The notes beneath the pieces were generated by a model. The model worked only from the letters and a program-made list of their open reading frames with translations. It ran no database searches and had not been told where the DNA came from. 28,723 nucleotides of DNA, from the IMG/VR virus record IMGVR_UViG_3300009181_000265, positions 1 to 28,723 of that record; one strand, written 5' to 3'. This document shows, one piece after another, positions 2,235-27,297 of the stretch (its first letter is position 1; the number at the start of each line of letters is the position of its first letter). The translations under genes and the position numbers were made by a program. The stretch is from a virus.

Positions 2235-2268
2235 TAAAAAAACCTTCGAGTTATTTTGAAGGTTTTTT
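2235..2268 (-). terminator. Terminator overlapping the stop of the HExxH gene
   Basis: Arms AACCTTC (2241-2247) and GAAGGTT (2258-2264), extended by A/T pairs, with T-runs on both sides. On the minus strand the stem begins in the last codons and encloses the TAA. Symmetry means it could work in both directions. Confidence 0.75.
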
Positions 2269-3444
2269 AGGTTTTGTTGTTTGTTTTTGTACTTTGGGGG
2301 TTGGATATTTCAACTCAGTAACTATCTTAGAGCTCTCACCTTTTATTTTTTGCCAAAGTTCCCAATTAATAATTGATTCTGTTTTTACATTCTTTGTCAT
2401 ATCGTATAGTTTACCAATTTTCTTAATCATCTTGATAGCCACAAAGTTAAACATTTTTTCTTCATATTCAAAATATTTTTTGTAGTTATCGTCAAATTTT
2501 TCTAAATTTTTAATATACTTTTGAAAAAACCTATCTTTTTCACTCGAAAATCCCATAAGTGATTCAAGAAAATTAGTTGATAACATTTTATGAAACATTT
2601 CCGCCTTCCAATTTTTAAGATTAAGAAAAAATAATTGTAAAGTTTTGTCAATAATTTGGTCCTCAGATAATCCAAGATATTCAATATTATTTATCTTGAA
2701 AACTTCAAGAATTTTTGGTATATCATTTTTTAAATCTTCTCTTAATTTATCATACGTAAAATCTCTTATCTCTACTAACCTCTTATAAGTTCGATTATCC
2801 ATTAAAAAGTCATAGAATTCTTTTTTGGTTATTCCCGCGGCAACAATAGCACCAGCAAACTCCGATGGTCTAACTAAATTTTCAATCATATGTGTATAAT
2901 ACAAATTATGAATAAATTTATTTAACGGGTTAATAGTCGCAAAATTATTTTTAATATAAGTTAAATACTCAGACCTTTGTTTCATGGTCCCTTTAGGCTT
3001 TTTGAATGAATCGTATTTGTGTTTTAACTCATGAGATATTGAACTAACAAATTCAATCCTATCGTCATACATTAATTTTTTAATATTGGAACCTGTAACA
3101 TTTTCAGGTGCTACAATAACAAATTTTACTTTAAATTCTTTTTTTGGTTGATTGGATTTAATATTGTATTTTTTAGTAACTTCAAAATCATCGGGAGTTG
3201 CCATACCAGCGATTGCAATCTCATCACCTTCCCTCATATCAAAATTAATCTCAATTTCTTTTATAGTTAAATCAGCAATATCATAATCACCATTTAAATC
3301 TATATTATACCCATCCAAATCTTCAAAAGTCATATCGTCATCAATAGAATCAATGGTCTTCTTGTAAATCTCATGAGCAACGTTAACTATGTTGTTTGGT
3401 ACACCCATAGCCTCAGATAACACGTTTTTAATAATTTCTCTCAT
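2251..3444 (-). CDS. Putative HExxH metallopeptidase-like protein
   Basis: 397 residues. The key feature is SSISHELKHKYDS, whose HELKH (138-142) fits a zincin helix. About 45 residues later comes YYTHMIENLVRPSEF, where E188 or E194 could be the third zinc ligand. N-terminal to this is a beta-rich region; C-terminal is a long helical, lysine-rich part ending in TKPKKPSK. The protein opens with MREIIKNVLSEAMG, one of the recurring amphipathic N-termini of this window. Possible roles are a virion maturation protease or an ejected protease; neither is shown. A TATTTAT motif lies 6 bases upstream of the ATG, and a terminator hairpin overlaps the stop codon. Confidence 0.6.
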   Translation of the reverse strand: MREIIKNVLSEAMGVPNNIVNVAHEIYKKTIDSIDDDMTFEDLDGYNIDLNGDYDIADLTIKEIEINFDMREGDEIAIAGMATPDDFEVTKKYNIKSNQPKKEFKVKFVIVAPENVTGSNIKKLMYDDRIEFVSSISHELKHKYDSFKKPKGTMKQRSEYLTYIKNNFATINPLNKFIHNLYYTHMIENLVRPSEFAGAIVAAGITKKEFYDFLMDNRTYKRLVEIRDFTYDKLREDLKNDIPKILEVFKINNIEYLGLSEDQIIDKTLQLFFLNLKNWKAEMFHKMLSTNFLESLMGFSSEKDRFFQKYIKNLEKFDDNYKKYFEYEEKMFNFVAIKMIKKIGKLYDMTKNVKTESIINWELWQKIKGESSKIVTELKYPTPKVQKQTTKPKKPSK

Positions 3445-3480: not shown

Positions 3481-3861
3481 ATGGACGTTAAAATAAACGA
3501 GGATAAATTCAGAAAACTACTATTCAATTACTTGGATTCACAAGGTGAATTAAAATACGCTAACGAACATAGGACAGGATATGGTTCTAGTGTTAGAGAG
3601 TTTTTTTATGAATACCCTAATGAGGATATGGATTCTGACTATGAATTTGTATTCTCATACTACGGAACACCTGAAGACTATGAAGAGGTTGTTGGCGTTA
3701 CATCTCCTTATGAGTCTTCAACATATCCTTTAATTGAAATGGATACTTACATTTATAAAAAAATTGTAGATTTATTTGGTGATATATTTGCACCTCAATT
3801 AGTACTTGAGTGGTTAAACAAACGTTATGATTTAAACGCGGTTAGTATTGTTGAAAATTAA
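3481..3861 (+). CDS. Unknown small late protein
   Basis: 126 residues, acidic and tyrosine-rich. It begins MDVKINEDKFRKLLFNYLDS, similar in layout to the other helical N-termini here, then has YEFVFSYYGTPEDYEEVVGV and a C-terminal helix with LVLEWLNKRYDL. Soluble; no catalytic motif seen. It is transcribed divergently from the HExxH gene, and the two starts share a 36-base spacer holding mirrored GTATTTAT elements. ATG lies 4 bases after its motif. The next gene, 27 bases downstream, has its own motif. Function not recognised. Confidence 0.75.
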   Translation: MDVKINEDKFRKLLFNYLDSQGELKYANEHRTGYGSSVREFFYEYPNEDMDSDYEFVFSYYGTPEDYEEVVGVTSPYESSTYPLIEMDTYIYKKIVDLFGDIFAPQLVLEWLNKRYDLNAVSIVEN

Positions 3862-3888: not shown

Positions 3889-4377
3889 ATGGAAAAGTCA
3901 AAATTAGAAAACATCGGCAATACTCAGTTATTTTACTTACTTAAAAGTTTTATATCAATAACTAACGATTTATCCCCTCAAATGGATGATTATAATTTAT
4001 CGAATAATTGTGACGAAGCATCACAAATTGTTGGAGTAGAATTAACTTTTCCTGTTGACCAAAACTATATTGTATCAACATTACGTTTAAATAGTAGTTA
4101 TGATTTCTCAACACAAAAACCTAATGGTGAAATTAAAAGACCGTCATTTGGTCTTTACGAATTTGATATTGACGAACATAGAAGTGAACAAGTTAGAAGA
4201 ACATATAGGCATACAATAGTTTCATATGATAAAAGTTTAGTCATACCAACAGGTCAGATGGCCGAAGGTGAAGGATGGCTTGATTATAGTGATGGTAGAG
4301 AAGTTGATGTTGATTACTATGACGGTGAAACAACTGATGTTAATTATGACCATAGTTCAGTAACAAAAATTAGTTAA
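3889..4377 (+). CDS. Unknown late protein
   Basis: 162 residues. An N-terminal helix (MEKSKLENIGNTQLFYLLKS) is followed by a mostly beta region (YIVSTLRLNSSYDF, then SFGLYEFDIDEHRSEQVRRT). The C-terminus is a strongly acidic Asp/Tyr/Gly run (DGREVDVDYYDGETTDVNYD). There is no hydrophobic segment and no known motif. It is preceded by TATTTAT at 3878-3884, 4 bases before ATG. The CxxC-repeat gene starts 1 base after its stop, so the two are almost certainly co-translated and may work together. Confidence 0.72.
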   Translation: MEKSKLENIGNTQLFYLLKSFISITNDLSPQMDDYNLSNNCDEASQIVGVELTFPVDQNYIVSTLRLNSSYDFSTQKPNGEIKRPSFGLYEFDIDEHRSEQVRRTYRHTIVSYDKSLVIPTGQMAEGEGWLDYSDGREVDVDYYDGETTDVNYDHSSVTKIS

Positions 4378-4378
4378 A

Positions 4379-5227
4379 ATGGAAAAAGTAAAATTATTAT
4401 CATTAGTTAAAAAATTATCATTATCTTATAAAAATGGTTTACATCCTGGTATTGTATTTGGTACATTAAGACAGAATAAATTCATCAGTGAGTTATTTGG
4501 TAGTAGAATATCAGGAGAAGATTTAGCTTATCTCAGTTTCCTTATACCTCAAGAAAAAAAAGGTAAAGATATTAGTGTGGCGTATGATATTATAAAATCA
4601 AATTTATTTGGGGTGTCAATAGCCACAATACTAGAGCATGACCCAAATGTTGAATGTACCTCCTGTGAAGGTGCTGGCCAAAATGGTTGTGAAGATTGTA
4701 TGGGAGATTCCTACATAAGATGTGATGAATGTGATGGTTCAGGTGAGATTCAGTGTGATGATTGTGATGGTTCAGGTGAAGATTCAGAAGGTAACGCTTG
4801 CGATGAGTGTCAAGGTGGCGGACAAGTAAGTTGTCATGATTGTGGTGGTGATGGGACTGTTGAGTGTAACTCATGTGATGGTACTGGTAGTGTTGATTGT
4901 TATGATTGTGATGGTAATGGTGATGTTGCAACTAACGATTCTATTAAATTAGAATATTTCTTTGTATTATCTTGGAATAGTAAATTTAGAGATTTGTTTA
5001 ACAATATGGAACAACCAAAAGTTATTAATATTGAAACTTATCTTAAACTTTCTGATAATTCACAATCATTAGTTTTTTTTACAGATGAAGTTGTTGACGA
5101 AGATGACGACAACGGTATTATTGAATTGGAGGACGATACTACTGTATTTATTACTGTAGACTTAGAACCTGTAATTGAATTAAGAGACTCTTCAGGTATG
5201 TTAAGGGTTATGGGTCTTTATGTTTAG
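4379..5227 (+). CDS. DnaJ-type zinc-finger (CxxCxGxG) protein lacking a J domain
   Basis: 282 residues. Residues 93-177 hold eight CxxC motifs (93, 104, 115, 126, 141, 152, 163, 174), most followed by (D/E)GxG, the pattern of the DnaJ cysteine-rich domain, which binds two zincs with four motifs. Here the set is doubled, enough for four zinc sites. There is no HPD-containing J domain; instead comes an N-terminal helical part and a C-terminal acidic beta part (VDEDDDNGIIELEDDTTVF). A role as a folding or assembly factor or zinc scaffold is plausible but inferred. It follows the upstream gene at 1 base and ends with TAG, overlapping the convergent gene by 20 bases. Confidence 0.75.
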   Translation: MEKVKLLSLVKKLSLSYKNGLHPGIVFGTLRQNKFISELFGSRISGEDLAYLSFLIPQEKKGKDISVAYDIIKSNLFGVSIATILEHDPNVECTSCEGAGQNGCEDCMGDSYIRCDECDGSGEIQCDDCDGSGEDSEGNACDECQGGGQVSCHDCGGDGTVECNSCDGTGSVDCYDCDGNGDVATNDSIKLEYFFVLSWNSKFRDLFNNMEQPKVINIETYLKLSDNSQSLVFFTDEVVDEDDDNGIIELEDDTTVFITVDLEPVIELRDSSGMLRVMGLYV

Positions 5228-7632: not shown

Positions 7633-8205
7633 TTATTTCTCTCCGCTAGTAAAATCAATATCATTAAAAACAATTACAATCCCTGTTCGACTTGTTATTT
7701 CTCTTGAGAGGTATTCATCTGTACAGTCTTGAATTTCATTTTCAATCTCCCATCCAAATTCTTCTTCGTTTCTCGCATTAATTAATTTAAGAGTCTCACC
7801 GCCAGTCATAACTAATTCTACCTCACCATGAACATCATCAATAAGTACTGTAGTAGTAAATTGACTCGGTTCTTTTTCTTGTATTTCAGAGACTGTAAAT
7901 GTATAATCATAACCACCAAAAGGGTCTCCCACAACATGATGAGTACCTTTTAATAATTCTTCGGTTAATTTAATTGATTCGGATTCACCTAACCATTCTC
8001 TTAAAAAACCTAAAACATCATAATATTTAATTTTAGTTTTACCAACAATTAATTCAGGTGCTCGAGTACCTTCAAAACCAAACAACTTATAAAAGTTATC
8101 ATCAATCTTTCCCCCAAATTTGTCCCAATATTTAAAGAAGGCCTTCTTTTCAGCAAGGAACTCGTTGATACTGTGTAGTTGTTGTTCGGTTATTTTAAGT
8201 TTCAT
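7633..8205 (-). CDS. Unknown late protein with ITE-type N-terminus
   Basis: 190 residues. It starts MKLKITEQQLHSINEFLAEK, a clear example of the recurring [I/L]TExxL N-terminal helix. It then has a charged globular part with GTHHVVGDPFGGYDYTFTV and strands VLIDDVHGEVELVM, ending FNDIDFTSGEK. No membrane segments. TATTTAT lies 4 bases upstream of ATG (8210-8216), squeezed between this gene and the stop of 8219-8611. Function not recognised; the promoter and N-terminus suggest a late, perhaps virion-associated, product. Confidence 0.7.
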   Translation of the reverse strand: MKLKITEQQLHSINEFLAEKKAFFKYWDKFGGKIDDNFYKLFGFEGTRAPELIVGKTKIKYYDVLGFLREWLGESESIKLTEELLKGTHHVVGDPFGGYDYTFTVSEIQEKEPSQFTTTVLIDDVHGEVELVMTGGETLKLINARNEEEFGWEIENEIQDCTDEYLSREITSRTGIVIVFNDIDFTSGEK

Positions 8206-11257: not shown

Positions 11258-11962
11258 ATGACACCTAAAGTAACAGAAGAACAATTAAAAAGCCTTAAAC
11301 TATTTTCATATTATTGTATGTCTCACGGAAGTAGTGAAGTTGATGTTGATGTTTACACTGACGAATGTGATTATGATTATATGTCTGAAGAAGCATACAG
11401 TAATGATGGTACCAGGATAGAATTATATGACGCAATATCTGATGTCTTAAAAAATATTTTAGATGAAAATGATGTCTACCAAGAAACTTCAGACTGTGAT
11501 AATAGAGGGACAATTAAAATTAATATTGATTGTAAAGAACGTATACTATCTTTAAATGCTTGGCAATGGCAATACACAACATTAGAATCTCAGACAGAAA
11601 ATACAATAGAAGAAATTAAAGAGAATTATAGTGATGAATTATATGAACTAATCCTATCATTTTTTGACCAACTTCACGAAAAAAATGTTTCTGAAGGTTA
11701 TGTTGATTTTAGTGGTGGTGGTGATAGTGGTGACTGTAATGGATTTGCCTATGGCGATTTTCAAGGTCAAATAGATTTAGATAAGAAAATTATCGATTTC
11801 ATGTACGAACAATTGGAAAACCATATGGGTGGATGGGAGATTAATGAAGGTTCTCAAGGTCGTTTTATATTCAATAATGAATCTAAGGATGTTACCTTAG
11901 ACTTTCAAGAGAATCAAGAAGAAGAAGTACCAGTCCCTGTGGACTTTGTAATAAAGTTTTAA
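11258..11962 (+). CDS. Unknown acidic late protein (weakly DUF6878-like)
   Basis: 234 residues, very acidic. It begins MTPKVTEEQLKSLKLFSYYC, another TExxL N-terminal helix. Later SEGYVDFSGGGDSGDCNGF and HMGGWEINEGSQGRFIF resemble the GSGDxG and GWExNdGaxG stretches I recall from DUF6878, though this is uncertain. The first 100 residues (DVDVYTDECDYDYMSEEAYS) have no parallel I know. Soluble, no catalytic residues assigned. TATTTAT lies 13 bases before ATG; a strong hairpin terminator follows 8 bases after the stop. Confidence 0.65.
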   Translation: MTPKVTEEQLKSLKLFSYYCMSHGSSEVDVDVYTDECDYDYMSEEAYSNDGTRIELYDAISDVLKNILDENDVYQETSDCDNRGTIKINIDCKERILSLNAWQWQYTTLESQTENTIEEIKENYSDELYELILSFFDQLHEKNVSEGYVDFSGGGDSGDCNGFAYGDFQGQIDLDKKIIDFMYEQLENHMGGWEINEGSQGRFIFNNESKDVTLDFQENQEEEVPVPVDFVIKF

Positions 11963-14931: not shown

Positions 14932-16113
14932 TTATTTTGTAGGGTGATTAAAGGTAAACTCAGTATTATCATCAGTTAAATAATCTTTGTTATCTATCAT
15001 TATTTTTGATTTAATACCATTTTCTAAATCTTCTGAAAAAGGACTTGGGTGTACGTAACCTTCAGGGTTAATAACCATCTTATTTGTACCTTCGACGGTA
15101 CCCGCTTTATTAATAGTAACTTCAATCTTAATTTTACCATCTTCACTCTTAACGTTACTAATAGTATAATTAACTTTTTTTCTATTATCTCCCCAACCAA
15201 TACTTAATAACTTTTTAGTACCAATTAACGCCGATGCAAATTTATCACCAAAATTAGTTACTCTTTCGGATTTAACATCATCTAAACTTTTTCCGTCAAT
15301 AAGATTTTGGATTTCTACTTTTGTTACACTAATAACTTTAGCATCTAAACCTGAATTATATCTTACAGGATTAGCGTGTGACATTTGTTTTGATGTTGAT
15401 GATGAATAGGCGTTACTAACTACATACCATTGATTGTTGATGAATAAATAAACAGGGTACCAATTATAGGATTTAACCACATAATACCACTCGTTTTTAC
15501 GATTAACGTCCCAGTAACCTTCGAGATTTGACCCTTTGAATGGGATTTTAGCACTACTGAATTGGTAAGCGTTATTGTTTGGCGTTTTTCTTTGTTTAAA
15601 CTCTCTGAAGTTTCTGAAAGTTGTCTTATCTAAATTCTCGTAATCACCATTAGGTCTGTAATTTGCGGTATAAACTTCGTAATAGAATCTCGAGTCAGAT
15701 TCAGGTCTTCCCACGAAAGGCATCATGGTTTTAACAAAGGCTAACATTTCAGATTGTTTACCCATATCTTGTTTATGTTTATTAAGATATTTGAATAATC
15801 TAATCTCTTTTTCCGACAAAGGATTTTCCCCTTGACCTTCAAGTTGTTCTTTAATAATTAATTTAACAATTTTAGATAAATCAAACTCAGTAATACGAAT
15901 TGATTTTGACTCATCAAACATAAATTTTCTTTTTAATTTTATTTTCATAATTCCAACGGCGTTTTTGAGTCTTTCATACTCGTTAGAATTATCAACAATT
16001 GAATATTCTTTAATAAACAAATTAATCTCTTTAATAATTTCTTTAAGCTCATTTTGAGTTTTACATGAAACTATTTTTATAATTAAATTGTTAAGAATTT
16101 CTCGTTTATTCAT
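14932..16113 (-). CDS. Large late protein with embedded ITE helix
   Basis: 393 residues. Residues 1-65 are helical and basic; residues 71-90 read SIRITEFDLSKIVKLIIKEQ, the fullest copy of the recurring sorting-like helix. Here it is internal rather than at the extreme N-terminus, but Met66 lies just before it. The middle is aromatic-rich (NEWYYVVKSYNWYPVYLF, NNQWYVVSNAY), the end beta-rich (KIKIEVTINKAGTVEGTN). The architecture suits a structural or ejected protein. TATTTAT 4 bases before Met1 (16118-16124) argues for the long start. Function unknown. Confidence 0.72.
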   Translation of the reverse strand: MNKREILNNLIIKIVSCKTQNELKEIIKEINLFIKEYSIVDNSNEYERLKNAVGIMKIKLKRKFMFDESKSIRITEFDLSKIVKLIIKEQLEGQGENPLSEKEIRLFKYLNKHKQDMGKQSEMLAFVKTMMPFVGRPESDSRFYYEVYTANYRPNGDYENLDKTTFRNFREFKQRKTPNNNAYQFSSAKIPFKGSNLEGYWDVNRKNEWYYVVKSYNWYPVYLFINNQWYVVSNAYSSSTSKQMSHANPVRYNSGLDAKVISVTKVEIQNLIDGKSLDDVKSERVTNFGDKFASALIGTKKLLSIGWGDNRKKVNYTISNVKSEDGKIKIEVTINKAGTVEGTNKMVINPEGYVHPSPFSEDLENGIKSKIMIDNKDYLTDDNTEFTFNHPTK

Positions 16114-18589: not shown

Positions 18590-18910
18590 TTATTTACCAA
18601 TTACTATTTCATCGTAATTTAATTTACCCATACCTTCAGAGTCTTTAGACTCAAATTCATCATACATATATGTCTTAACAACAGTAACAATACTTTGTTC
18701 GGCCTGAGCAAGTTTAGTTTCCATCCAATCCTCAAGTTGTTCACCTTGTTCCATTTTCTCCCACATAGCGTGTGCTAATGTTGCAATAGTGAATAATTGT
18801 TGTTTTGCCATGTAAGACCCTTCTTCTCCGTGTTCTTGTATATTTCTTTTTTTAACACCATTAACTAGTGTTTCTAATTGTTTTTCTGAAATAATAATAT
18901 CTTTACCCAT
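18590..18910 (-). CDS. Unknown late protein with ISE-type N-terminus
   Basis: 106 residues, helical and acidic. It begins MGKDIIISEKQLETLVNGVK, a variant of the recurring N-terminal helix. Then it has QQLFTIATLAHAMWEKMEQG, LEDWMETKLAQAEQSIVTVV and ends DEIVIGK. A small four-helix-like phage protein; function unknown. TATTTAT lies 13 bases before ATG. A rho-independent terminator lies between its stop and rmlB. Confidence 0.72.
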   Translation of the reverse strand: MGKDIIISEKQLETLVNGVKKRNIQEHGEEGSYMAKQQLFTIATLAHAMWEKMEQGEQLEDWMETKLAQAEQSIVTVVKTYMYDEFESKDSEGMGKLNYDEIVIGK

Positions 18911-21302: not shown

Positions 21303-21737
21303 TTAAATACCACGCATAATTTCTCTATTAATATCTCTTTCTTTAATAGATTCTCTCTTATCATGTAATTTTTTACCTTTACCTAAAACTATTTCCATCT
21401 TTAATAATCCCCTATCATTTGAAAATATTCTGTACGGGACTAATGTTAACCCTTTAACAAGTTCTTTTTGTAACTTAATAATTTCTTTTTTCTTAAGTAA
21501 TAACTTTCTATCTCGTAATGGTTCGTGAGTGTACGCCATTTTATATTCAGGAATGTTCATTCCTTTAACCACTAACTCGTTATTAACAAAAAAACAATAA
21601 GCATCAACTAATGATACTTTACCACTACGAATTGATTTAACCTCAGGTCCAACCAATTTAATACCAACAATTAAAGTTTCAATAAATGAATATTCAAATT
21701 TAACTTTACGATTTATTATGTTGATTTGATTTCCCAT
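21303..21737 (-). CDS. smpB: SmpB, tmRNA-binding protein
   Basis: 144 residues from the Met at 21737. The longer frame from 21776 begins with a hydrophobic string and crosses the promoter, so it is rejected. SmpB features: NRKVKFEY near the start, GIKLVGPEVKSIRSGKVSL, AYTHEPLRDRKLLLKKKEI, LTLVPYRIF, and the basic C-terminal tail GKGKKLHDKRESIKERD that enters the ribosome. SmpB delivers tmRNA to stalled ribosomes for trans-translation. A phage copy could keep translation running or redirect tmRNA. TATCTTTGC ends 3 bases before ATG, implying a leaderless, host-polymerase mRNA. No ssrA is visible in the window. Confidence 0.92.
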   Translation of the reverse strand: MGNQINIINRKVKFEYSFIETLIVGIKLVGPEVKSIRSGKVSLVDAYCFFVNNELVVKGMNIPEYKMAYTHEPLRDRKLLLKKKEIIKLQKELVKGLTLVPYRIFSNDRGLLKMEIVLGKGKKLHDKRESIKERDINREIMRGI

Positions 21738-21740
21738 AAA

Positions 21741-21749
21741 GCAAAGATA
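21741..21749 (-). promoter_or_regulatory. Host-type -7 element before smpB
   Basis: Sense TATCTTTGC, TTT, ATG. The 3-base spacing fixes the smpB start at 21737 and implies a leaderless mRNA. Confidence 0.7.
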
Positions 21750-21757
21750 GTAATTAA

Positions 21758-21796
21758 AAATTAAAAACCCTAACAATTTTTACACTGTTAGGGTTT
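21758..21796 (-). terminator. Terminator upstream of smpB
   Basis: Arms AAACCCTAACA (21786-21796, minus sense) and TGTTAGGGTTT (21765-21775), 10-base loop, then a T-rich run ending just before the smpB -7 element. The nearest upstream minus coding gene stops at 22268, so it may end the candidate small RNA instead. Confidence 0.78.
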
Positions 21797-22271: not shown

Positions 22272-23674
22272 CCTTCATTAATTTTAGACTGTAACACATT
22301 CACCAATTCTTTTTGAACCATTTTAGTAAACTTCACATAAGGAGAATCATCTGACTCAGCATTATATTTGTACTTTCCTGCTGGTGGTCTTTTAGACCTA
22401 CCTAAATAACTAAGACCCGATATATTAGTGATACATTTGTGTCCACCACTATTAGCCTGAATTAAATCCCAAGCATTAATCGTAACACCATCTAACATTT
22501 TCATTTCTTCCTCACTTAATTCAGTAAAAGGAATTTCCATCATTTTACCAATTTGTGTTAAATGTTCTTTACCATTCTCCATTGTTTTAAAATTGTCCCC
22601 ATATAATGCGACAAAGTCTCTAAATGTAAATCCAACTGATTCAGGACCAAATCCTTTTGAACCTTCAGAAATCCATTTAATTGTTGATAAGGGTATTTGT
22701 CTTTCTTGTAATTGTGTTTCCCATTTAGCAAGTACTTCCTGAGCAATCTCACCTAAGTTAACACCTTTTAACTCACGTTCTTTTTTATAAGGATTACAAG
22801 ACGCTTGAACTAAACCTAATGGCCAAGCAATAACTAAGAAATCAGCGTCAGGGTTATTTTTGAAAGGTGTGTATCTATCATAAGAACCAGGTTTCATCAT
22901 ACTACCACCTCCGTATTGAACAATAATGTTACCCTCAATTTTAACATTATGGTGGTTTTTCATTTGGTCAATATAACCTTCTTTGTTTTTCTGTAATTCG
23001 GGTACAGTGGCGTAACCTTTCTCAATCATGATTCTTTTTATGTTAGTAACAAGATTCATAAGTGATGGGGTACCAACCATAACAAGTTCTTCTAAGAACC
23101 CTGGTTTATTTTTAAACGCCAATAATAACTTATTAGCAACTAAACCTAAGGCAGTTTTGTTTTTACTCAAAGATTTTTCTTTATCTAATTTGAATAAGTA
23201 ATTTATTACTTGGTCAACAGTTACTTCGTTAGCTGCGTAATTAGCAGAGTCAACCATAGATATTAATTGAATGTCTTCAGGTGAAAATATTTCATTAGGT
23301 GATACAACTTGAGATATTGTTTCAACATTTGAACGTGAACTTCTAAATGAAGTTGATTTAGTATCTTCCGCCCCCGCTTGTCTATCGTGGTGGTCTGTAT
23401 GGATAACAAACATTGGTTTACCGTGAGCGAAATCCACAAGTACTGGCATAATATCACCTTGTGCATCGTTCTTCTTTACAGAGAACTCTTTATCCCCATA
23501 TTGAATAACGTGAGCATCAACAACTTTAATCCCATTATCCTCAAGGTATTTTTTCATCGCAATTGCGGTTGTCACGCCATCTAAATCTTGGTGAAAATAA
23601 ATCTCAGCTTTAGAATAACGTTTAGCTAACTTATTGATATCTCTAATGCCACTTTCTTTAATTAATTTTTTCAT
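22268..23674 (-). CDS. DHH/DHHA1 phosphoesterase
   Basis: 468 residues. DHH motifs: HQDLDGVTTA (28-37), Asp81 in VDFAHG, HTDHHD (92-97) and VDSANYA (D142), all metal ligands of RecJ/NrnA-type phosphoesterases. A DHHA1-like end appears as SGGHKCITNISGL (409-421). The middle holds helical and strand regions specific to this protein. It could degrade single-stranded DNA, oligonucleotides or cyclic dinucleotides; the last would counter CBASS-like immunity, but no motif decides. It begins MKKLIKESGIRDINKLAKRY. Start overlaps the upstream gene by 4 bases (ATGA), so it is co-expressed with a late gene. Confidence 0.85.
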   Translation of the reverse strand: MKKLIKESGIRDINKLAKRYSKAEIYFHQDLDGVTTAIAMKKYLEDNGIKVVDAHVIQYGDKEFSVKKNDAQGDIMPVLVDFAHGKPMFVIHTDHHDRQAGAEDTKSTSFRSSRSNVETISQVVSPNEIFSPEDIQLISMVDSANYAANEVTVDQVINYLFKLDKEKSLSKNKTALGLVANKLLLAFKNKPGFLEELVMVGTPSLMNLVTNIKRIMIEKGYATVPELQKNKEGYIDQMKNHHNVKIEGNIIVQYGGGSMMKPGSYDRYTPFKNNPDADFLVIAWPLGLVQASCNPYKKERELKGVNLGEIAQEVLAKWETQLQERQIPLSTIKWISEGSKGFGPESVGFTFRDFVALYGDNFKTMENGKEHLTQIGKMMEIPFTELSEEEMKMLDGVTINAWDLIQANSGGHKCITNISGLSYLGRSKRPPAGKYKYNAESDDSPYVKFTKMVQKELVNVLQSKINEG

Positions 23675-24780
23675 ACTAACGCTTTTCCTCCACCTAATAG
23701 TGAACCAATTAATGATGTGAATGCGTCTGTTTTAACCACAGTTGACGCTGATTGTGTTGCAGTAGATAATGATGGTACAACTGAATTTCCTGTCGTTTGA
23801 CCTGCGGCAAACTCTTGGTTCCATAAACTTTGTGATTCAGGTGTCTCACTATATTGATTAACTCTTTCCTCTAAATTAGGGACTATATTTTCTAATTCCT
23901 CAGGACCAACAAAGTTACCAATACCTAACCAATCTAATAAACCTAAATACCATTTAGTTCTTCTCATTAACGACCTTGTTGCTCTATTACCAAATAGACG
24001 ACCCATACCACCTGAGATATATTTACTTGACATTGATTGTAAACCTCCTTTATAATCTCTAAACCCTCTGAAAGATTGGTCTTTACTCATTTGTTTTAGT
24101 AATTCCTCTTTTTCAACCGCACTTAAGGCTTTTTCACTTTTCATAACACCTTTACCAATTTCAGTTCCTGCTTTCATTTCTTTTCCAGCTTTTCCAAAAA
24201 TTTGAACGTACTCTTCAACAACTTTAACTAATCCAGACCCTAACATAGGAACTCTACCAACAGAACCTTTTAAAAAGGTAACTAATTTCTCACCCCAACT
24301 CGGAGCGGTCTCAACCATCTTAGCAATAGGTCCACCAGCTCTTCTTGCAGTACCCGCTATTTTAACGGCATCACCTGTTAAGGCCGCCGCTTTAAATGCT
24401 TTAGCGGCACCACCACCTAATTTCATAACACCAATAACAGGTTTAGCGATAAGGTCACCTAAGTAAGGAACCGCAGAGATTAATGAAAGAAGTGCATATA
24501 ATTTATCACCTTGTCTCCAGTAACTAATACCATTAACAATATCAACAACGCCTGTTGGGTCAAAGATACCAACAATATCCCCAACGGTATTATACCATTT
24601 AGATTCTTTGATTAATTTGGCTTGTTCAGGGTATATTTCTTTTGCAAATTCAACAACAAACATTTTATCTTCTTTAGATAATTTGTTCCATTTTTCTTCG
24701 AGAATCTTATATTGTTCCTCTTTATAAATTTGAACTATTCTGTCTTTTAATTCAGACTCAGTAAGTTTCATTCCTTTCAT
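23671..24780 (-). CDS. Late protein with LTES N-terminus and hydrophobic DPTG hairpin
   Basis: 369 residues. MKGMKLTESELKDRIVQIYK carries the recurring N-terminal helix. About 67-145 is hydrophobic and glycine/alanine-rich: GIFDPTGVVDIVNGISYWRQ, then GDKLYALLSLISAVPYLGDL, then GGGAAKAFKAAALTGDAVKI. This GDPxG...GD...S(L)ISAVPxxGD layout is found in phage virion or ejected proteins and polymorphic-toxin pre-domains, where it may insert into membranes. The C-terminus is Gln/Ser/Thr-rich. Candidate ejected or membrane-penetrating protein; inference. TATTTAT lies 15 bases before ATG; Met4 is another possible start. Confidence 0.7.
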   Translation of the reverse strand: MKGMKLTESELKDRIVQIYKEEQYKILEEKWNKLSKEDKMFVVEFAKEIYPEQAKLIKESKWYNTVGDIVGIFDPTGVVDIVNGISYWRQGDKLYALLSLISAVPYLGDLIAKPVIGVMKLGGGAAKAFKAAALTGDAVKIAGTARRAGGPIAKMVETAPSWGEKLVTFLKGSVGRVPMLGSGLVKVVEEYVQIFGKAGKEMKAGTEIGKGVMKSEKALSAVEKEELLKQMSKDQSFRGFRDYKGGLQSMSSKYISGGMGRLFGNRATRSLMRRTKWYLGLLDWLGIGNFVGPEELENIVPNLEERVNQYSETPESQSLWNQEFAAGQTTGNSVVPSLSTATQSASTVVKTDAFTSLIGSLLGGGKALV

Positions 24781-26103: not shown

Positions 26104-27297
26104 TTAATTTTTATTGTCAATTGATTTTGGTTTGACATATGCGCTAGAATTGGTCATTTCTTCTGATAATTCATATTCATCATCATTTTTGTACTCATCC
26201 AAAAGTTCTTCTGCGGTTGGTATTCCATTGTATTTAGATTTTAAATCATCAAAGTTTTTAGTGTTAACGTTTGAATACATATTATTTAACGTAACAGATA
26301 ACTCATCCGCCATATCAATAGTATCACTTATCACCTTAATAACCTCGTATGGGTTTGCATTAGATGCTGGTCTTCTATCTTCAACATAACCTTTCCATAA
26401 TTCGGCAACGGACCTTGGGACTCTAATTGACGCCCCTCTGTCACTTACACCCCAACTAAATTTGTGAATTGATTGTGTTTCATGTTTACCAGTTAATCTA
26501 AGATTATTATCAGAACCGTAGACTTCGATATGTTGTTCTCTTCTTGATTCAAGAGCATTAAATAATGTTTTGAAATAACTTTCCCCACCAACTTCCCTCA
26601 TCTTTTTTGTTGAGAAGTTTGTGTGTAATCCTGAACCATTCCAATCTCCTGAGGTAATTGGTTTTGGGTGATAGTTAATATGATATCCGTATTTCTCAGA
26701 TAATTTCTCCATCAAATATCTTGACATCCATAAATCGTCACCAGCTTTAATCTTACCTTTAGCAAACACTTGGTACTCCCATTGACCTAAAGCAACTTCA
26801 GCATTAACACCAGTGATTTCAATACCCATATTTAAACACAAGTCCATATGTTCTTCAACTAATTCTCGACCAACAACATTACTACCAACACCACAATAAT
26901 ATTTACCTTGTCCTTCAACGTGAGGTCGGTTAAATCCTAAGATTGGTTTACTAATACCTTCTTGAATAAAATATTCTTGTTCAAACCCAAACCACATATC
27001 ATTGACCTCGTCACCTAACATATCTCTATGATTTGATTCATGTGGTGTTCCGTCAGGATTCATTACCTCACATAAAACATATACTTTATCACTACTATTC
27101 ATCTCACGATATAATCGAACTGGTTTTAATATACCGTCAGAACTATACCCCTCCGCTTGTTTTGTTGACGAACCGTCAAAGTTCCATTCAGGTACTTCTG
27201 ATAAGTCAGGAATTCCTCCTTCAATTACTTTTATCTTACTCCTTAAATTAGGTTCTGGTGTATAACCGTCTAACCATATGTACTCAATCTTTATCAT
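26104..27297 (-). CDS. Glutamine synthetase, GSII type
   Basis: 397 residues. GSII features throughout: PEWNFDGSSTKQAEGYSSDG (37-56), WFGFEQEYF with metal-binding glutamates (102-110), GKYYCGVGSNVVGRELVEEH (131-150), ITGVNAEV and GQWEYQV, GDWNGSGLHTNFSTKKMR with the ATP-side His, LTGKHET, FSWGVSDRGASIRVPR and EDRRPASN. All catalytic residues seem present. It adds ammonia to glutamate using ATP. The last 45 or so residues (acidic, after EVIKVISDTI) go beyond the usual end. In an infection it could raise glutamine for nucleotide synthesis. Unlike the dodecameric GSI, GSII is not adenylylated, so it would escape that host control. Confidence 0.95.
   Translation of the reverse strand: MIKIEYIWLDGYTPEPNLRSKIKVIEGGIPDLSEVPEWNFDGSSTKQAEGYSSDGILKPVRLYREMNSSDKVYVLCEVMNPDGTPHESNHRDMLGDEVNDMWFGFEQEYFIQEGISKPILGFNRPHVEGQGKYYCGVGSNVVGRELVEEHMDLCLNMGIEITGVNAEVALGQWEYQVFAKGKIKAGDDLWMSRYLMEKLSEKYGYHINYHPKPITSGDWNGSGLHTNFSTKKMREVGGESYFKTLFNALESRREQHIEVYGSDNNLRLTGKHETQSIHKFSWGVSDRGASIRVPRSVAELWKGYVEDRRPASNANPYEVIKVISDTIDMADELSVTLNNMYSNVNTKNFDDLKSKYNGIPTAEELLDEYKNDDEYELSEEMTNSSAYVKPKSIDNKN

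Follow-up and report, generated by a model that had tools for sequence, protein, structure and literature searches.

The window, meaning here the whole stretch of DNA analysed, is the 28,723-nucleotide IMG/VR virus record IMGVR_UViG_3300009181_000265. The gene studied (Table 1) encodes a protein, P0001, all sixteen cysteines of which lie inside eight CxxC motifs. Successive motifs are 11, 11, 11, 15, 11, 11 and 11 residues apart, an arrangement written here as 4+4, with four motifs on either side of one central loop. When P0001 was shuffled 20,000 times the mean number of CxxC motifs was 0.85 and the maximum six, and the window's 35 other ORFs contain two CxxC altogether in their 7,873 residues. 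At the DNA level, this gene has two occurrences of a pattern of four CxxC motifs at 11-codon steps, a pattern that 100 shuffles of the window never produced. A 33-base tandem repeat at positions 4721-4787 (94% match) spans motifs 3 and 4 and is a sign of recent duplication of a rung (see below) in the DNA. The gene evolves under purifying selection, with a crude dN/dS of 0.24-0.26 against four relatives; against the same four the N-terminal domain is the most constrained part (0.14-0.19), the C-terminal domain is intermediate (0.23-0.25) and the array is relaxed (0.37-0.55).

Table 1. Features of the putative zinc-ladder gene and of other genes in the window
Feature	Position	Strand	Remarks
Putative zinc-ladder protein gene (P0001)	4379-5227	+	282 aa, ATG to stop
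N-terminal domain, residues 1-92	4379-4654	+	five helices, net charge +2
Ladder arm 1, residues 93-133	4655-4777	+	CxxC motifs 1-4 at residues 93, 104, 115, 126
Central loop, residues 134-140 (predicted hairpin axis)	4778-4798	+	2-residue indel of relatives at loop edge
Ladder arm 2, residues 141-184	4799-4930	+	CxxC motifs 5-8 at residues 141, 152, 163, 174
C-terminal alpha/beta domain, residues 185-282	4931-5224	+	net charge -14
Coupled upstream ORF	3889-4377	+	162 aa, acidic; stop one base before ladder ATG
Next ORF upstream	3481-3861	+	126 aa, acidic; kept in L002 and L050
Phage-encoded SmpB	21303-21776	-	Pfam 154.8 bits
Glutamine synthetase-like protein	26104-27297	-	
Leader-bearing ORFs	2251-3444, 7633-8205, 11258-11962, 14932-16113, 18590-18910, 23671-24780		

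Neither the J domain (PF00226) nor the C-terminal substrate-binding domain (PF01556) is present in P0001 among Pfam matches at E<=1, and scans of Pfam, PHROGs and NCBIfam gave no named family for either flank of the array. Its best Pfam scores, 24.1 bits to BSD2_CRD (PF25436, cut-off 27) and 23.7 bits to DnaJ_CXXCXGXG (PF00684, cut-off 32.7), are below the cut-offs, as are the scores to anti-TRAP (14.4 against 32 in Pfam and 19.9 against 65 in NCBIfam). The NCBIfam scan contained no match above any cut-off, and the PHROGs scan gave weak matches only, to families without assigned function. An earlier note on this DNA had described eight CxxC motifs (twice the number in DnaJ), the lack of a J domain, flanking domains of no known identity and a one-base coupling to an acidic protein; all of this is borne out, the coupled upstream protein carrying -8.6 net charges per 100 amino acids.

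Relatives L002 and L050 share the one-base spacing between these two genes, and the upstream protein was found only in relatives about 80% identical to P0001. In the other branch of the family a different, apparently unrelated gene of ~120-170 codons occupies the same coupled position. A two-gene unit shared across the branches was rejected, the probability being 0.1% when the upstream protein was compared with a profile of ten upstream genes of the other branch (one of which, L264, is itself a ladder-type ORF). Several otherwise unlike ORFs of the window (Table 1) open with a similar leader, for example "ITEQQL" or "ISEKQL", which from its sequence is perhaps a shared signal. SmpB, the protein that partners tmRNA, is also encoded here; a tmRNA was looked for in the window and not found. 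Freshwater "moraphages" of Bacteroidota are described as carrying glutamine synthetase, DnaJ and DnaK (PMC12619734), and since a glutamine synthetase gene is present here as well, the window may derive from a moraphage-like phage.

An AlphaFold2 model of P0001, built on a 54-sequence alignment, has a mean pLDDT of 92.0 and a pTM of 0.77. In this model the mirrored strand pairs 134/140, 123-125/149-151, 112-114/160-162, 101-103/171-173 and 90-92/182-184 each sum to residue 274, which is what one nested hairpin requires, and strand 77-87 of the N-terminal part is mirrored by the first strand of the C-terminal domain, 189-198. A Foldseek search of the PDB with the model ranks BSD2 at the top (E 1.1e-3), and in VIA-align BSD2 (6ekb) superposes on the two inner rungs, formed by motifs 3 to 6 (residues 111-163), with Z 6.9 and an rmsd of 1.5 A over 53 residues at 34% identity; a Z below 8 is no proof by itself, yet the BSD2 entries score higher than the unrelated ones. 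VIA-align scores anti-TRAP lower, at Z 4.4, and the zinc domain of E. coli DnaJ lower still, at Z 3.5; matches to Q antiterminators (Z 4.0, and E 0.27-0.43 in sequence comparison) were discounted as weak. The model of a 5+5 relative, L111 (pLDDT 85.7, with residues 114-121 below 50), has strand pairs that sum to 310, and BSD2 again falls on the two inner rungs (residues 129-181, Z 6.8, rmsd 1.4). In Foldseek and VIA-align the two terminal domains, each compared within the whole-protein model, had no convincing match, which is not evidence of a new fold.

Because of the 4+4 steps, the mirroring of strands about one axis and the placement of BSD2 on the inner rungs, P0001 very probably forms a single long hairpin in which four zinc rungs are nested, a fold we call a ladder. 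The DnaJ zinc domain has motif 1 paired with motif 4 and motif 2 with motif 3. In P0001 the two rungs of the DnaJ/BSD2 zinc domain would have become four, nested within one extended arm, motif 1 pairing with 8, 2 with 7, 3 with 6 and 4 with 5, and one zinc being held by each pair. Zinc binding is predicted from the geometry of the CxxC motifs and the BSD2 match, and from the model we infer four zinc ions per protein. The head of the molecule would be formed from both protein ends, by the N-terminal helices and the C-terminal alpha/beta part, with a long, stiff, acidic hairpin arm projecting out of it. Against this explanation count the Pfam scores below both cut-offs and, in the wider comparison given further on, the non-significant covariation of facing rungs and the unmirrored arm gaps of viral arrays.

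The earlier note had taken the array to be a doubled DnaJ-type domain. Taken literally, this would mean two DnaJ zinc domains in tandem, motifs 1-4 pairing among themselves and motifs 5-8 likewise. The motif count is indeed exactly twice that of DnaJ, but motifs 4 and 5 are the only neighbours spaced by more than 11 residues, whereas tandem domains should have long gaps between 2 and 3 and between 6 and 7; in addition, the model strands fit a single axis, BSD2 superposes across the centre of the array in both P0001 and L111, and modules of four motifs cannot build 3+3 and 5+5 relatives. We consider tandem domains most improbable. What survives of that interpretation is a stand-alone, J-less DnaJ-type zinc protein, the nearest solved folds being BSD2 and the DnaJ zinc domain, and what falls is the side-by-side arrangement of two DnaJ sets. 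Of the checks proposed in the note, structure prediction gave an ordered fold (pLDDT 92), as one extended hairpin and not as a doubled domain, and the search for relatives of the same layout yielded a family with 3+3, 4+4 and 5+5 arrays.

Nine full-length relatives at about 80% identity (L002-L008, L050 and L051) came from two targeted scans, and many more relatives in viral contigs were picked up by scanning for motifs spaced 11 codons apart; of the 277 viral loci, L001-L051 stem from targeted searches. Profiles of the N- and C-terminal domains, with the array left out, were searched against 8,865 ORFs taken from 394 sources and match 98 ORFs, of which 76 are distinct and 66 are uncut by the end of a locus (among the matches listed). 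These 66, again among the matches listed, have six (n=16), eight (n=40), ten (n=9) or seven (n=1) CxxC motifs, and these counts describe array-bearing members, because all loci were drawn by array pattern or by similarity to P0001 and array-less members are thereby missed, as are 2+2 forms in the pattern scans, which need three or four motifs at 11-residue steps. The member with seven motifs has a stray CxxC 43 residues ahead of a 3+3 array. The longest gap is off centre in none of the 66 (among the matches listed), and in L072, L273 and L229 the gaps are so even that no longer gap marks the centre. The 2-residue indel among relatives falls at the central gap of P0001, and BSD2_CRD is matched at E<=0.01 by 36 of 54 family members. 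The ladder gene belongs to a family without a name, found in metagenomic viruses, whose members have 3+3, 4+4 or 5+5 arrays. The C-terminal domain alone as query found no relative in viral_contigs. Among named phage records there are partial matches to P0001 in three huge phages, two of which are also matched by L111, and a plasmid search gave eight weak matches to the array only; seven came from haloarchaea, a group with generally acidic proteins.

Similar arrays are not confined to this family and occur in viruses, bacteria and archaea. Among the matches listed, 272 ORFs over all loci carry the pattern; two without a parsed array, 21 cut at the end of a locus and 35 duplicates were dropped, and removal of copies more than 50% alike left 159 arrays. 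An even count of at least six motifs is present in 119 of these, and 109 of the 119 have one largest gap (matches listed). That gap is at the exact centre in 100 of the 109 testable arrays (16.0 expected), made up of 54 of 56 from viral loci (8.3 expected) and 46 of 53 from cellular genomes (7.7 expected), all among the matches listed; counted by clusters defined by their flanks, 42 of the 47 that are testable (of 68) are central against 6.9 expected (matches listed), with 3 to 9 rungs per arm. In arrays from genomes the steps other than 11 are mirrored between the arms, with a difference sum of 207 against 293 when shuffled (5 of 5,000 shuffles as low), as in the steps 13,13,11x5,15,11x5,13,13 of L361. 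Variation of the arm gaps is not mirrored in viral arrays (66 against 66.8 shuffled), and covariation of facing rungs is slight and not significant (mirrored minus other MI 0.0056, at or below zero in 19 of 200 bootstraps, 83 arrays). The motif count is odd in 34 of the 159 arrays, and several long arrays are irregular, so that these lie outside the simple rule of equal arms about a central gap.

Individual members of this wider set are diverse. The genome contig L361 encodes at 4421-4897 a protein of 16 CxxC motifs (8+8) with almost no other sequence, and a second genome contig, L348, has 18 (9+9). A peptidase-like phage protein (phrog_4191, E 1e-63) is fused to an eight-motif zinc array at L014 547-2646, and the ladder protein of L356 has a peptidoglycan-binding match; beyond these two, Pfam, PHROG and NCBIfam gave no useful domain for the bacterial and huge-phage ladder proteins. 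Terminal acidic zinc ladders are also carried by huge-phage proteins in which an "SCM" motif lies within a domain of ~400 residues (L009, L011, L013, L017, L065, L201 and L205); some genomes have several copies, and N-termini of SCM proteins such as MKINRYIDFINES resemble the T4 capsid-targeting leader. In five of these huge-phage proteins (L009, L011, L065, L201, L205) the ladders, like that of P0001, have mostly equal arms, from 3+3 to 7+7, but their N-terminal domain is of another kind and ~400 residues long, and they have no C-terminal domain.

Of the named systems the closest is BSD2 (Bundle Sheath Defective 2, PDB 6ekb), a plant Rubisco assembly chaperone that lacks a J domain, as P0001 does, and shares with it the CxxCxGxG zinc hairpin, the 11-residue steps within each arm (by alignment) and the nested fold seen in the P0001 model. 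BSD2 differs in having two rungs against four predicted here, in being much shorter, without domains like those at the N- and C-terminus of P0001, and in its charge, its aligned stretch being neutral overall whereas the P0001 array is strongly acidic. The DnaJ cysteine-rich domain (PF00684, PDB 1exk; Z 3.5) likewise has CxxCxGxG motifs in palindromic spacing (14, 26, 14 in the DnaJ of huge phages), but with two rungs, no acidity and a J domain and DnaJ_C in the same protein. Anti-TRAP (RtpA, PDB 3ld0 and 2bx9; Z 4.4) is a short DnaJ-like zinc protein that acts by protein binding; it is only ~53 residues long, and P0001 falls below both anti-TRAP cut-offs. Tam37/EMB2737 of the Ycf2-FtsHi complex (PDB 8xku) also has DnaJ-like zinc motifs and no J-domain name, but in the aligned stretch it has a long insert with two motifs per side and no extended ladder. 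In the literature, as covered by titles and the start of abstracts, there is no description of ladders of more than two rungs and no name for the P0001 domain. Other reports describe a phage polymerase with a partial DnaJ domain of two motifs (PMC9038755), J-domain proteins in jumbo phages (PMC7824862, PMC12619734) and RiPP precursors with a single CxxCxGxG-D-CxxCxGxG unit (PMC10787088).

The P0001 array contains 24 D/E and one K/R, a net charge of -23 over 92 residues. If 0.466 of the charged residues were basic, as in the other ORFs of the window, at most one basic residue among 25 charged ones would turn up with a probability of 3.6e-6, and no 92-residue stretch in the 35 other ORFs is as acidic, the lowest reaching -19. 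Fifty-four arrays of the family (less than 90% alike) range from -17.9 to -30.2 charges per 100 residues, with a mean of -24.1. Among the matches listed, the mean net charge per 100 residues is -21.5 for viral arrays, 65 of 67 being negative, and +3.3 for those of cellular genomes, 17 of 76 being negative; the 67 viral arrays (42 of the window type, 15 of the SCM type and 10 others) belong mainly to two families and so are not independent cases. The acidic residues are scattered over all variable positions of the repeat instead of being fixed at a single one, and this spread, with the relaxed dN/dS of the array, suggests that charge is conserved more than sequence.

Two J-less chaperones, BSD2 and the algal ZnJ2, share the zinc unit, and ZnJ2 is reported to keep proteins from aggregating without cooperating with DnaK (PMC5818400). 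By analogy, P0001 is tentatively proposed to be chaperone-like, a J-independent holding or assembly factor, and the ladder fold together with a BSD2-like, J-free holding or assembly role is the explanation we favour, although we put its prospects a little short of even. The arm would then grip client proteins, probably ones with basic surfaces, in the manner of a BSD2/ZnJ2-like factor, and its acidity fits a grip on basic clients or imitation of DNA. P0001 is not simply the DnaJ of its phage, since a separate DnaJ is present on the contigs of three close relatives (in the one scanned, L046, with J domain, C-terminal domain and an ordinary zinc domain). A chaperone-like role is weakened by the small number of hydrophobic residues available for client binding and by the array's net charge of -23 in 92 residues, compared with 0 for the BSD2 stretch; the zinc domain of DnaJ in related phage contigs carries +5 charges per 100. 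Because acidity this extreme is unlike DnaJ and BSD2, non-chaperone roles remain to be weighed.

One such role is that the acidic rod is a DNA mimic that blocks DNA-binding proteins of host or phage, with the number of rungs setting the length of the mimic. The polyanionic character of the array, its improbable shortage of basic residues, the contrast between viral and cellular arrays and the apparent conservation of charge over sequence all point this way, and DNA mimicry by a phage protein is known from T7 Ocr (PMC7064336). Structure searches of P0001, however, matched no DNA mimic fold, stretches nearly as acidic occur in other ORFs of the window, and the viral arrays come from few families; we regard mimicry as unlikely. 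A stiff arm of defined length could also serve in the virion or its assembly as a spacer that parts two components, the number of rungs being the ruler; rungs vary from 3 to 5 within the family while the head domains persist, and the huge-phage family has terminal ladders of 3 to 7 rungs, but the neighbouring genes are mostly without assigned function and no linkage to virion genes was seen, which makes a spacer decidedly unlikely. Sixteen cysteines, all in CxxC motifs, might instead store zinc or supply thiols in a buffer or redox protein; storage needs no ordered structure, conserved flanking domains or equal arms, and this possibility is very unlikely.

The zinc domain, which has only two rungs in the solved structures found here, is apparently extendable rung by rung, each extension adding to both arms at once. 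This would give a simple rule for reading many unannotated cysteine-rich proteins and would define a new kind of repeat protein, the length of which can be counted from the sequence. In the broadest form of the idea, which we hold to be rather unlikely as a whole, the DnaJ/BSD2 zinc unit would be the shortest form of a general rung-countable ladder, with rung numbers from 2 to 9, that viruses, bacteria and archaea share and from which some phages would have made a polyanionic, DNA-imitating rod that disarms DNA-binding or defence proteins of the host. The near-universal strong acidity of the phage versions is a testable lead on the job that these widespread phage genes may do.
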